From IMG/VR virus record IMGVR_UViG_3300042691_030813, positions 1 to 22,048 of that record: a stretch of DNA of 22,048 nucleotides. The stretch is one strand, 5' to 3'. The position numbers and the translations under genes are program-made. Below are positions 7,954-20,123 of the stretch, in pieces. This DNA comes from a virus. Each line of letters opens with the position of its first letter. Within the stretch, counting starts at the first letter, position 1. The notes under the pieces were generated by a model that did not search any database, had not been told where the DNA came from, and was given only the letters and a program-made list of their open reading frames with translations.

Positions 7954-8382
7954 TTATTGCTTCATCAATCCGATTACAAATTCAATTTTGCCAGCAGTCA
8001 AAGCAGCTGTAGCAATTGTCATAAGAACTTTATCGCCAGAAAACAATACACATGGAGTAGGCAATACATTTGGAGTGCCTTCTACAGCAACTGGAACAAT
8101 GGTTGAACCAGCTGTTAAGTTTGCAACTGCGCCTTGGGTAGTATTCATGAATCTGTTAGTGTTGCCGGTAACGCCCCAAATAACAGTAGCTGAACCGCCA
8201 GAAGTACAAGTTGTCTTAACTGTAGCGTGAGCGCTTACAATAACCATACGCTGTGAAGCTGTTAGGATATCGTAGAAAGTAGCTGTTCCGCCGTCTACTG
8301 CGAAATCGTAAGTATAGCGAACATACTCAACTTGATTTCCAAATCCTGGTGCTTCAGTACTAGCATCTTTTAAAACTGCCAT
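7954..8382 (-). CDS. Probable capsid-associated (decoration-like) protein
   Basis: A 142-residue protein, ATG at 8382 with GGGAG upstream. Almost entirely beta-type sequence (YVRYTYDFAVDGG, MVIVSAHATVKTT, SATVIWGVTG, KIEFVIGLMKQ) with no charged helices, as in trimeric head decoration proteins. Its position two genes after the major capsid protein and just before a strong terminator suggests high expression with the capsid. The family is not identified with certainty. A minor structural protein other than a decoration protein is possible. Confidence 0.55.
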   Translation of the reverse strand: MAVLKDASTEAPGFGNQVEYVRYTYDFAVDGGTATFYDILTASQRMVIVSAHATVKTTCTSGGSATVIWGVTGNTNRFMNTTQGAVANLTAGSTIVPVAVEGTPNVLPTPCVLFSGDKVLMTIATAALTAGKIEFVIGLMKQ

Positions 8383-15992: not shown

Positions 15993-16361
15993 TCAGAAGG
16001 GTATTGAATCGTCTGATGGCTCATCACTAGCCGGTGATTCCTGAGACACTGGCTTAGTCAAAAACTGCACAGAGTTTGCAACGATATCTGTCCGATACAT
16101 TTTAACACCGTCCTTGTTATCGTAAGTGCTATAAGAGAGTTCGCCATCAATCGCGACCATGGAACCCTTCGCGAGATACTTGCCTACATTTTCGGCAGTC
16201 TTTTTGAAGCAAACCACGTTGTGCCAACTTACCAATTCCTGACCGCCAGACTTCTTAGACGTGGCTACCGAGAACTTAGCGATATCCTCCCCTGCCTTCG
16301 ATTTGAACATCTCTGGGGTTTTCCCTACTCTCCCTACAATGATCACTTTTGAAAAACTCAT
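15993..16361 (-). CDS. ssb: Single-stranded DNA-binding protein (SSB)
   Basis: A 122-residue protein with an N-terminal OB-fold: strand KVIIVGRVGKTPEM, then FSVATSKKSGGQE, the SWHNVVCFKKTAENVGKYL segment, MVAIDGELSYSTY, and the SVQFL strand. An acidic, disordered C-terminus ends SDDSIPF, the tip by which bacterial SSBs recruit partner proteins. It coats single-stranded DNA during replication and recombination. It is translationally coupled to the ERCC4-type gene by an ATGA overlap, with AAGGAG inside that gene. Function is assigned with high confidence. Confidence 0.9.
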   Translation of the reverse strand: MSFSKVIIVGRVGKTPEMFKSKAGEDIAKFSVATSKKSGGQELVSWHNVVCFKKTAENVGKYLAKGSMVAIDGELSYSTYDNKDGVKMYRTDIVANSVQFLTKPVSQESPASDEPSDDSIPF

Positions 16362-16888
16362 TTTATCTCCTTAATGGGATTCTGAATTGAATCACCAAAA
16401 TGTTTAAGTTCATCCCATCGCCGCCTGGCTGCCGTGAATAAGAGCCTAGCAACGAAACTGGAGCATCTTTCGTGATTGGTAGCCATGATGACTGGCACCC
16501 CTCGCGCGATCCAACCAAGGGCCGATCCGACCGCCTGAGAGGATGTTATCTTAGACCTCCACTTGTAATGGGTCCCAGAGAGCCATAAACCGGCCTCCAG
16601 TTCGTTCCAAGTGGCCTCGACTACGATTGCCCTGGTCTCGTATGCCAAGAGCCTCTGGATCTCTTTTTCGAACCTCTCGCGTTCCCTGCCAACGCAGCCC
16701 AAGAAATCAGGTAGGGACTTGCGCTCGATTGCTACCGATTGCTCCAATCCCTTCACGCTGTAATCAGCGGTTTGCAATGTTCCAACAACAACATTAAGGG
16801 GCGAAAGATCTAAAGGTGCTTTTTCTCTACTATCTTGAATTGCAATTATATCTGATGGTTGTATGTTTTTCTTCACAACCATCCCCAT
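16358..16888 (-). CDS. ERCC4-type nuclease
   Basis: A 176-residue protein with the XPF/ERCC4 nuclease core: DSREKAPL near residues 18-25, TADYSVKG at 40-47, AIERKSLPDFLGCVGRERER at 52-71 (catalytic ERK-x-x-x-D), then an IVVEAT strand. It would cut branched or flap DNA, acting with SSB during replication and recombination. Three in-frame starts (ATG 16888, ATG 16882, GTG 16876) lie inside the HNH 3' end. The GTG one gives a GTGA overlap and is the alternative choice. Most of the gene is GC-richer than its HNH neighbour. Confidence 0.75.
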   Translation of the reverse strand: MGMVVKKNIQPSDIIAIQDSREKAPLDLSPLNVVVGTLQTADYSVKGLEQSVAIERKSLPDFLGCVGRERERFEKEIQRLLAYETRAIVVEATWNELEAGLWLSGTHYKWRSKITSSQAVGSALGWIARGVPVIMATNHERCSSFVARLLFTAARRRWDELKHFGDSIQNPIKEIK

Positions 16889-17427
16889 CTTTTACGTCTG
16901 TAAATCTGTGAAACGCACTCAAGAGATACACCGTATCTTTTTGCAATAGACGTCATGGTAATAGTTTTAGAATCACATAAATTTCTTATTTCTAATGCAG
17001 TAAATTCATCTATTTTTGACCTTGAGTTTTTGGATCCCTTGCAGGTTGTTCCATGTCTAACAGCATCCTGCATATTCTCCTTACGCGTCCCTACAGCTAG
17101 ATTATTTAAAAAATTATTATATGAATTACCATCGAGGTGCCTGACATCGTGTCCATCAGGTATTTGACCTTTAAAGCAAGTGTAAACAAGCCTATGCACA
17201 TCCCAACGATTACCGGCACCTAAATAGACTGTTGAATATTGTTTTTTAGAACCGGTCCTTAACTGTTTCAATTCTCTCCAACCGTTATCTTTTCGACCAA
17301 TACGAATCGCACGAGAAAATACACGTCCATTTTGCGATATGGCGTAGCGGGTATCACGTAACCATATTTTTGCTATTCCAGACTGCAACTGGTCTTCAAC
17401 TTCCGCTATTATATTGACGCAGTCCAT
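16873..17427 (-). CDS. HNH homing-type endonuclease with C-terminal HTH
   Basis: A 184-residue protein. An N-terminal NUMOD4-like segment (RYAISQNGRVFSR) is followed by an HNH_3-type core: VHRLVYTCFKG (first His), GHDVRHLDGNSYNN (His-x-Asp, conserved Asn-Asn), NLAVGTRKENMQDAVRHGT, and a C-terminal HTH (MTSIAKRYGVSLECVSQIYR). These enzymes nick or cut DNA and often spread as free-standing mobile genes. It is low in GC, like many mobile nucleases, and its 3' end overlaps the ERCC4-type gene. Start ATG 17427 has AAGGA upstream. Activity is inferred from domains, not shown. Confidence 0.8.
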   Translation of the reverse strand: MDCVNIIAEVEDQLQSGIAKIWLRDTRYAISQNGRVFSRAIRIGRKDNGWRELKQLRTGSKKQYSTVYLGAGNRWDVHRLVYTCFKGQIPDGHDVRHLDGNSYNNFLNNLAVGTRKENMQDAVRHGTTCKGSKNSRSKIDEFTALEIRNLCDSKTITMTSIAKRYGVSLECVSQIYRRKRWGWL

Positions 17428-17462: not shown

Positions 17463-17690
17463 CCGATCAAAACCGATCAAAAATAAATACAGCCGATCAT
17501 AACCCATTGATAAACCAGAAATCTGATCAAACCGATCAAAATCCTAATTCTACATATTAGTGATTGCATATATATCTAAAAAAACAATTACTATATAATA
17601 ATAACACTTTTGATCAGTCTGATCAGATGATTAATAATATTAAATACTTATGATCAGTTTTTTGATCAGCTGTTGATCGGCTCCTGATCG
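17463..17690. repeat. Inverted GATC decamer array, candidate replication origin
   Basis: Eleven GATC-containing repeats lie in 228 bases. The five left copies (GATC at 17465, 17475, 17495, 17525, 17534) read CYGATCAAAA or close to it. The six right copies (17612, 17621, 17652, 17664, 17675, 17686) read mostly as the reverse complement, TTTTGATCRG. The arms are separated by about 75 bases that are very AT-rich (17538-17611), with runs of A and TATATA. Iteron arrays flanking an AT-rich unwinding element are typical of origins. The last copies extend into the 3' end of the SF3 helicase gene. No gene is found at 17428-17665. Operator or methylation-switch roles are alternatives. Confidence 0.55.
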
Positions 17691-18970
17691 GTTTTTTCTT
17701 CTCTGCTGTCCTTTAAATATACATCCTGCTTTTTTGCCATCTTGTAATAAGCCCACCTATTCGTCTCCCCAAGTCTCCCTTTTTCTATCCCTAAGTTGTT
17801 TTTCCAATTGTCGATGTATCTACCGCATAGCTTTGTTGAGTGAATTTTGTGGCTGGAAAAAACTTGCTGGATATCAGCAGCTGAAACGTAATCTTTTTCA
17901 TTTGTACTAGTGACGAAATATTTATCAAAAAGTGAAATGTATTTTTCATCGACTACTGAAGCCTGAGCATCAGCCGTTTCTTCTACGGGAATAGGACCAT
18001 GATTTGGGCAGTCCTTCTGATATAAATCTATACAGTTCCTAATAATCTCAGGCGACTCTTTTAATAGATTCTCGTAATATTTCGGATCTGGTTTTTTATT
18101 AATTGGCCCAACGTGACAGAAGATTGCACGTCTTTGATCAGCCATGCCTCCGCTAATCGCCAACTCTTCATTACTCAAAAACATAAACTTGCAATTTAGC
18201 TCTGCGCTATAGGCGTCACTATTTTTCTTTTCTAGTCTAATGCTATCGCCGCCTGTAAGTGTCTTAAAGAATCCTGAGCTAGGGAAATCAGGCTGATCGC
18301 ACTCAGGAAATATGACGAGGCGTTTACCTAAGAATGAGTAAGTCCAAAAGTTGTTAATACGGCTAGGAGAAGGAACAAAGTCCGTATGACAAGATGGTCC
18401 AAGTATTGAACGGAGCAAGTAAGTAAGAGCACCCTTGCCGTTTTGTCCTTGGCCGTGCAGATATAGATACTGTTGTCTATCAGCCTTCGGATCAAACAAG
18501 CTGCCAATAAAAGAACATAACGCCAAACTATTTGAGCAGCGAGATAGAAATTCTTCAAATAGCGGTGGAGTATCAAACTTAGCTTCTGGTAGATCAAAAT
18601 CAAGCCGATGAAAAGCCAGACTATCATCTGATTTAAAAGAAATAGATTTTGGTTCATCGATAGGTTCTTGCATACCTATCCACATATTAGCGACTTCCTG
18701 TGACTCCCTATAAGTAAGGTAAAGTTTTCTCTTACCGCATGAGTTAACAAAAGAAAGAATCGCGGACACCAAAGCTTTATTGTTCACATAGCACACAACT
18801 TTATTATAATTCTCAGCAACTAGTTCTTTGATGCCCGGTTTAGGCTCGCAAACATGAAATTTATGCGGCCACGGTGGGAGTCCGGGATGCAGACCATTAA
18901 TTGCAGCAATAATTTCTAGGTAAGTTTCAACTTTTTTCTTTCGTGGTTTTACGACAGGAGCAGCTTCCAT
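17666..18970 (-). CDS. SF3-family replicative helicase
   Basis: A 434-residue protein taken from ATG 18970, because AGGA lies five bases before it; GTG at 18982 would add four residues. The P-loop is YLHGQGQNGKG (about 170-180), the Walker B is RLVIFPECD (about 217-225), motif C is KFMFLSNE (about 261-268) and the arginine finger region is DQRRA. This is the SF3 set seen in poxvirus D5 and phage P4-type proteins. No primase domain is visible. The final residues are encoded by repeats of the array. It probably unwinds DNA at replication start. It lies next to the candidate origin. Confidence 0.8.
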   Translation of the reverse strand: MEAAPVVKPRKKKVETYLEIIAAINGLHPGLPPWPHKFHVCEPKPGIKELVAENYNKVVCYVNNKALVSAILSFVNSCGKRKLYLTYRESQEVANMWIGMQEPIDEPKSISFKSDDSLAFHRLDFDLPEAKFDTPPLFEEFLSRCSNSLALCSFIGSLFDPKADRQQYLYLHGQGQNGKGALTYLLRSILGPSCHTDFVPSPSRINNFWTYSFLGKRLVIFPECDQPDFPSSGFFKTLTGGDSIRLEKKNSDAYSAELNCKFMFLSNEELAISGGMADQRRAIFCHVGPINKKPDPKYYENLLKESPEIIRNCIDLYQKDCPNHGPIPVEETADAQASVVDEKYISLFDKYFVTSTNEKDYVSAADIQQVFSSHKIHSTKLCGRYIDNWKNNLGIEKGRLGETNRWAYYKMAKKQDVYLKDSREEKTDQEPINS

Positions 18971-19031
18971 AGTTTTCCTCACAACATGGTTAAGCTAAGA
19001 CAAGTTTTGAAAGTTTTTGATTGACAAAATA

Positions 19032-19047
19032 GGTGAGCAATGTCACA
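19032..19047. promoter_or_regulatory. CRP-like dyad upstream of the helicase
   Basis: GGTGA-GCAATG-TCACA matches the CRP consensus (TGTGA, six bases, TCACA) in nine of ten arm positions. It sits 62 bases upstream of the helicase start. Such a site could link replication to host catabolite signals, but it is a single match and no promoter is attached to it. Confidence 0.3.
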
Positions 19048-19168
19048 TATGAGGCAATCGTTTTATTTCTAAAAATGCTCCTCGGTTTGCCGCCAGTTGG
19101 AGTATTTTTTTTGTCTTAACGGGATTTGAAAGACCAGATTGCTACTGACACTAAAAAGAGTCAAGCAG

Positions 19169-19193
19169 AAAAAACTCGTTATTTAAGCAAGTT
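19169..19193 (-). terminator. Weak hairpin after the 75-aa gene
   Basis: On the minus strand, AACTTG pairs with CGAGTT (one G-U pair) around a nine-base loop, and the right arm is followed by four more Ts. It lies about 40 bases beyond the stop of the 75-residue gene. The stem is short and AT-leaning, so termination would be partial at best. Confidence 0.3.
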
Positions 19194-19233
19194 AATCCAT
19201 TTTTATGTGAGTAAGCTGTGTATTACTTGTGGA

Positions 19234-19461
19234 TTATTTTTCTGGAATGAGAATTCTTTTTAAATCCTCGTAAGATTCCGCTACTTGAATATAACCACCG
19301 CCTATCGAATGAATACCAGTTTTAGCAGGTAGGTGCCTTGCGTCCAAGTATCCGATTTTGGATATTGCATTAATCGAAATAATCACTTTGATTTTCTCTA
19401 CCTGGGATAAAAACTCTGCATTTTTCTCTCTAAAAATCTGCGTAACTTCTATGAACATCAT
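19234..19461 (-). CDS. Small protein with FlbD-like features
   Basis: A 75-residue protein starting MMFIEVTQIFREKNAEFL. After the charged first helix it has strand KIKVIISINAISKIGYL and a hairpin ending GGGYIQVAESYEDLKRILI. This pattern (N-terminal I-E-V-T, a central I-N-x-I-x-x-I and a final I-x-V-x-ES-x-E-x-L/I) resembles small FlbD-type proteins. The similarity is by eye and function is unknown. It has its own promoter with an overlapping dyad (19486-19513) and is divergent from the early operon. Confidence 0.5.
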   Translation of the reverse strand: MMFIEVTQIFREKNAEFLSQVEKIKVIISINAISKIGYLDARHLPAKTGIHSIGGGYIQVAESYEDLKRILIPEK

Positions 19462-19485
19462 TTAAATAAACCCCCGATATCTTTA

Positions 19486-19540
19486 ATAATAAAATACTAG
19501 TTTAACTAGGCAAAAAAGTATAGTAGGAAATGTATTCCTA
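19486..19540. promoter_or_regulatory. Divergent control region with two operator dyads
   Basis: On the minus strand, TTGCCT (19513-19508), a 16-base spacer and TATTAT (19491-19486) form a reasonable sigma70 promoter for the 75-residue gene. Its spacer holds the dyad CTAGTT-T-AACTAG (19497-19509). A second dyad, TAGGAA-N5-TTCCTA (19524-19540), lies just after a plus-strand TATAGT (19519-19524). That TATAGT could be the -10 of the early operon, although no good -35 was found. This layout fits a repressor-controlled divergent switch. Confidence 0.45.
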
Positions 19541-19562
19541 ACATAAATTCAGGAGAAATAAA

Positions 19563-20123
19563 ATGACTGAACAACGGGTTTCCCTACAGTGGGCGGCTAT
19601 CTGCCTAAATGAAATCGCAGACGAGATCGAAAAGGGAGTTTCAATCAGCGATGCGCTAATGATCCAATTTTCGGAGCACCAAGCTAACATCCAGGAAAGT
19701 ATTGATCGCCGCAAAGCTTTCAAGCGATATCTAAAAATGATGATTGAAGCTTGCAAGGATCAAAAAAGGTTTATCGCGGAAGAGCAGGCGAGATTTGAAA
19801 CTGTCTTAGATAAATTCGAAGAAAAAACAAAAGAGATTATTGAAGCGAATCCGAATATCCCCTTTACCGATTCTTTGGGCAAGAAGGTTTCTGTGTCTCG
19901 CAACGGTACACCGCGCCTAGAAGTTGATTTTCCATTAGGTAGTAAATCATTTGGTAACATCGTCGACCTAGAGCAGGCGAGTTTTTTTGAGGTGCCATCT
20001 GAATATGTTCAGCAAGTATCGTTTCACACGTTGGACACTAAAAAGTTAAAGGATGATTTAGCTGCTGGCCATATTTTGAAATGGGCGAGATTACAATTCG
20101 GCACTCAGTTGAGAGGACTATAA
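19563..20123 (+). CDS. Siphovirus Gp157-like protein
   Basis: A 186-residue protein. The N-terminal 110 residues are strongly helical and probably coiled-coil (SIDRRKAFKRYLKMMIEACK, DQKRFIAEEQARFETVLDKF, EEKTKEIIEANPNI). A strand segment follows, GKKVSVSRNGTPRLEVDFPL. A coiled coil followed by a beta module is the Gp157 pattern. These genes often precede recombinase genes in phage early operons, as here, where the ERF gene follows two bases after the stop. The first gene of the operon, with AGGAGAAATAAA upstream of ATG 19563. The precise function of Gp157 proteins is not settled. Confidence 0.55.
   Translation: MTEQRVSLQWAAICLNEIADEIEKGVSISDALMIQFSEHQANIQESIDRRKAFKRYLKMMIEACKDQKRFIAEEQARFETVLDKFEEKTKEIIEANPNIPFTDSLGKKVSVSRNGTPRLEVDFPLGSKSFGNIVDLEQASFFEVPSEYVQQVSFHTLDTKKLKDDLAAGHILKWARLQFGTQLRGL

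Follow-up and report, generated by a model that had tools for sequence, protein, structure and literature searches.

From the evidence assembled here, a two-armed array of GATC-centred decamers located behind an SF3 helicase gene very probably serves a tailed phage as its replication origin and, judging from its sequence and by analogy with known systems, is an origin of the self-loading-helicase (SaPI/D5) type. The window, i.e. the 22,048-nucleotide stretch of DNA that was analysed, constitutes an entire 22-kb virus record and is over its full length 99.95% identical to part of a 36.1-kb record (G001). Since it encodes terminase, capsid and tail genes, besides a single-strand DNA-binding protein (SSB), an ERCC4-type nuclease, an HNH endonuclease, the SF3 helicase and an ERF recombinase, we assign the virus to the tailed phages. 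The origin reading draws its support from the array itself, from its mirror geometry, from its conservation with the helicase gene and its position behind it, and from the match to an annotated phage origin. Origins of this kind are already known; the phage itself is undescribed.

The array comprises a distal arm of five decamers on the plus strand (17463..17541; GATC starts at 17465, 17475, 17495, 17525 and 17534) and, in the opposite orientation, a helicase-proximal arm of six GATC-centred decamers on the minus strand (17608..17691; GATC starts at 17612, 17621, 17652, 17664, 17675 and 17686). The eleven sites, which the original prediction had placed in about 225 bases, fall within 231 bp, while no 231-bp stretch held more than seven when the whole window was simulated 1000 times with a first-order Markov model. 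When one mismatch was allowed, CYGATCAAAA matched 17 times in the window as compared to 4.4 expected (none of the shuffles reached 17), and exact decamers are confined to the array, with none elsewhere in G001 or in its relative G002, i.e. they are not evenly scattered. The proposal that the left copies read CYGATCAAAA and the right ones its reverse complement held with regard to the flip in orientation, as every orientable copy has its A-tract pointing toward the core (the copy at 17621, CTGATCAGAC, is palindromic and hence ambiguous), but exact matches amount to only three of the five left and two of the six right copies. Likewise, the AT-rich core was confirmed but not its length, as the 75 bases run from one inner GATC to the other: the candidate unwinding element between the inner decamers spans 66 bp (17542..17607) and is 80% AT, as compared to 59% for the window. 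As had been predicted, the right arm reaches the helicase coding sequence with its outer three sites, those at 17675 and 17686 coding for the end of the protein and that at 17664 overlapping the stop codon. Spacings are mirror-symmetric and close to multiples of a helical turn (9, 10-12, 20 and 30-31 bp). A search against Rfam returned no match, and a scan for operators, promoters and terminators found a single, chance-like hairpin inside the iterons.

In the collections searched, G002 was the only independent close relative of the window phage; scans of viral contigs with the window helicase returned G001 and G002 and nothing else, and bacterial genomes scanned with the helicase profile yielded no relative. 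The 38.8-kb G002 record carries an exact 127-bp terminal repeat and therefore represents a complete circle of 38,717 bp. Its helicase is 76% identical to that of G001, with a diverged C-terminal tail, and the iterons are still present, directly downstream of and overlapping the end of the helicase gene as in the window. In G001, the sites of the left (helicase-proximal) arm lie 39, 48, 79, 91, 102 and 113 bp from the centre of the array. The corresponding offsets in G002 are 40.5, 49.5, 80.5, 92.5, 103.5 and 114.5 bp on the left (plus a weak extra GATC at 108.5) and 40.5, 49.5, 79.5, 91.5, 102.5 and 113.5 bp on the right (plus one at 133.5). Thus, both G002 arms agree with each other and with the left arm of G001 within 1.5 bp, which was equalled by 0-3 of 20000 random placements with equal site numbers. 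In the right arm of G001, only the three inner positions agree, and this arm taken alone does no better than chance. Columns conserved between the two phages are enriched in the sites (71/88) over the spacers (88/150; Fisher p = 6e-4). In G002, the HNH gene is absent beside the array, which is closely followed by the ERCC4-type nuclease gene. Because the HNH gene comes and goes while the array stays, the array travels with the end of the helicase gene rather than with the gene downstream.

The helicase (17666..18982, minus strand, 438 aa) is D5-like (Pfam DUF5906, 3e-15) and our candidate for an origin-binding, self-loading initiator. It matches DNA primase families in PHROG, and the best solved relative of its profile is a 'DNA primase' (PDB 7ola/7om0, 6e-10), which we take to be a SaPI5 protein. 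An AlphaFold prediction from a two-row alignment gave no usable model (pLDDT 31). G002 has a primase-like ORF upstream of the helicase (L007:4955-5770; PHROG 4e-12); no primase was detected in the window phage or G001, where the best tblastn hit had an E value of 0.038 and the only ORF at window positions 19000-19460 spans 75 aa. In SaPIs, an associated primase gene is dispensable. Further along, a mostly non-coding stretch of 101 bp ahead of the ERF operon (window 19466-19566; G002 8162-8262) shows 95% identity, with the two phages sharing ~75% elsewhere, and probably represents a shared, unusually conserved promoter and ribosome-binding region.

The window agrees with each testable structural feature in the published layout of SaPI-type origins. 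SaPI Rep helicases recognise, through their C-terminal domain, iterons directly downstream of their own gene (PMC7581432), and in SaPI origins, as in SV40, repeats of opposite orientation serve to load a head-to-head pair of hexamers (PMC9894130). As in the window, the iterons of SaPI/PICI origins are found directly 3' of a gene for an SF3/D5-type helicase and are opposed around an AT-rich stretch (PMC7581432, PMC9894130). In contrast to SaPIs and PICIs, the window array belongs to an entire tailed phage that carries terminase and capsid genes, its iteron is a different one, and the helicase is not fused to a primase. A counterpart in the same place is the ori of the Streptococcus thermophilus phages Sfi11 and Sfi21 (known as phage-encoded-resistance element) at the 3' end of the primase/helicase gene. 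In Sfi21, an ori element that is non-coding and 302 bp long behaves as an origin in its own right (PMC6356513), and the depositors of the Sfi11 sequence marked the stretch overlapping the end of this gene as a putative rep_origin. Similar to the window, direct pairs 8 bp apart on either side face each other in Sfi11 across a 76-bp spacing, with a core of 88% AT, whereas the iteron word (AGTAAC) and the host lineage are different and the helicases only distantly related. With this equivalence in layout to both the annotated Sfi11 origin and the published SaPI origin, and with the array kept in a relative that has the same helicase, the original prediction of a candidate replication origin gains considerable support.

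Other systems resemble the window in part. The pRN1 protein ORF904 also is an SF3 helicase, with a C-terminal winged helix and an origin 3' of its gene (PMC4234260), yet this origin consists of a 100-nt stem-loop instead of iterons; P4 alpha is grouped by type with ORF904-like primase-helicases. By description, the SV40 T-antigen origin is similar as well, in that an SF3 double hexamer assembles on sites that flank a melting region in opposite orientations (PMC9894130), but T-antigen recognises DNA by its N-terminal domain (PMC7581432), unlike the SaPI-type C-terminal recognition proposed here. An iteron plasmid origin that depends on DnaA and Dam (P1 or RK2 type) does not fit, given that the whole window is devoid of DnaA boxes (TTWTNCACA) and that the gene adjacent to the array encodes an SF3 helicase, not a non-helicase Rep initiator.

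By analogy, the decamers would be bound by the C-terminal part of the SF3 helicase, whose gene lies just upstream, and each arm would nucleate one hexameric ring. The two rings would face each other across the AT-rich core and might jointly melt it to start bidirectional replication. In the complete G002 circle, the cumulative GC skew, suggested as a check along with the original prediction, reaches its detrended minimum at a distance of 0.7 kb from the array, in agreement with an origin there, but gene direction switches ~2 kb away and may cause this minimum; the skew maximum of G001 does not lie opposite the array.

The same anatomy was found in other phages and satellites. Among 25 SF3/VapE helicase loci, 11 had arrays above all shuffles in their 3' flank (four of which, G001, G002, L022 and L037, had been chosen via the array or phage lineage and are non-independent, leaving 7 of 21), as compared to one of 24 in the 5' flank, and several phages with related helicases had no detectable array. 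Two facing GATC pairs, searched for as a DNA pattern and without protein information, were found in G001, G002 and L037 only, the latter with an array (CYGATCACCC) whose start coincides with the last codon of the gene for a primase-polymerase/VapE helicase. As BLASTP found no match between the C-termini of the window and L037 helicases, their common GATC core is not explained by detectable homology. Compared phages with other array words are relatives by helicase or terminase: ctKpZ937 has a GGTARCAGCA array 5' of the helicase, in which direct pairs, spaced by 7 and 8 bp, face one another over 78 bp; a GGTAGACACTA array follows a partly cut helicase in a contig whose terminase is 53% identical; the word is TGGAACA in lactococcal phi31, and GGTGACG and AAGGTAAC in streptococcal satellites. 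Besides, five AGCACAA repeats in a single orientation, i.e. a one-armed version, stand right behind the primase-helicase gene of an uncultured phage (L014 4951-5066) but did not exceed shuffles in the automatic test, and Vibrio phage 1.111 (L052 29-362) bears an AGGGAAT mirror array ~1.6 kb upstream of the helicase, near the end of the record.

When words were chosen by hand, 10 of 12 arrays had their largest gap bracketed by facing direct pairs 6-10 bp apart, while 0.24 were expected when gaps and orientations were permuted. This pair-core-pair rule was formed on those same 12 arrays after they had been viewed, and we therefore wrote down a fixed procedure before applying it to eight unread phage loci. 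Five of the eight had arrays, two of which obeyed the strict rule (0.05 expected), and the same automatic procedure returned six of 11 in the first set (0.17 expected). Automatic word choice loses repeat copies; G001 and G002 fail the procedure for this reason and pass with the decamer. Pair-core-pair geometry hence is far more frequent than chance would predict, without being universal, and across these sequences array geometry looks better conserved than the repeat sequence. A wider reading, for and against which we see the balance as even, is that origins of self-loading SF3/VapE helicases in unrelated phages and satellites follow one geometric grammar, with selection holding the geometry of the loaded double hexamer and not the repeat word, which would change freely. 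Under this grammar, an outer cluster with a pitch of ~11 bp would be separated by ~30-47 bp from a direct pair (7-10 bp apart), and the mirror image would follow beyond an AT-rich core that measures ~71-81 bp, sometimes more.

Among the alternatives, we would still grant a slim chance to the array being an operator or promoter, at which a phage repressor or activator binds the decamers to control the HNH-ERCC4-SSB-terminase operon or to autoregulate the helicase. The array is intergenic and located just ahead of the next gene, namely 36 bp from the HNH start codon in the window and 33 bp from the ERCC4 start in G002. However, the outer sites of the right arm are inside the helicase gene, sigma-70-like sites are not enriched in the region (1 vs 2.4 expected), no regulator gene sits beside the array, and the array did not move when the HNH gene was inserted between it and the downstream operon. 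The two-arm anatomy, moreover, recurs behind helicases, including at an annotated origin. Either way, origin and operator roles of the array can coexist.

It is very unlikely that the array is a methylation-controlled site of the Dam/SeqA type, where the density of GATC would matter and not the decamer. Eleven GATCs in 231 bp would be in keeping with such a site, as would the GATC-centred iterons of L037, whose VapE helicase is of a different family. Yet, the bases flanking GATC are conserved and oriented, and the responsiveness to Dam methylation raised in the original prediction finds no backing, since no Dam-type gene (PF02086) occurs in the phages and equivalent arrays elsewhere (GGTARCAGCA, GGTAGACACTA, TGGAACA and others) do without GATC. 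The tetramer is not depleted in the window (86 observed vs 73 expected), and in the array is most plausibly read as the palindromic centre of the iteron. Silvanigrella phage MWH-Nonnen-W8red 1 (L012) contains no GATC in 8.6 kb (~29 expected), which likely reflects avoidance of a GATC-cutting host system. A partition (centromere) or packaging (pac/cos) site is just as improbable: iteron arrays form centromeres too and the terminase genes are ~2.4 kb away, but none of the window proteins searched was recognised as ParA/ParB-like, such arrays are tied across lineages to the helicase gene and not to the terminase, and a pac site needs no mirror arms around an AT core.

The genes next to the array differ between the two sister phages. 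In the window, the HNH endonuclease gene (16873..17427, minus strand; Pfam HNH_3) is inserted between the array and the ERCC4-type nuclease gene of the replication operon (16358..16888, minus strand), whereas HNH-type genes of G002 are found at L007 8152-8670 and 10240-10926 (the latter recognised by eye only). These differing positions suggest recent homing insertions. The SSB gene (15993..16361, minus strand), which shares the operon with the ERCC4-type nuclease, shows ~93% DNA identity between the window phage and G002, while its neighbours show 75-84%; either mosaic exchange or strong constraint could account for this.

In summary, a probable replication origin behind the SF3 helicase gene provides an otherwise uncharacterised metagenomic phage lineage with a defined, testable origin and initiator. 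The sequence rule, i.e. a direct pair, an AT core and a mirrored pair directly behind an SF3 helicase gene, could serve to locate origins in many phages and satellites whose repeat words cannot be matched, and the other phages and satellites offer natural variants for measuring the spacing needs of the double hexamer. Its wider reach would lie in a possible common geometry beneath changing repeat words.
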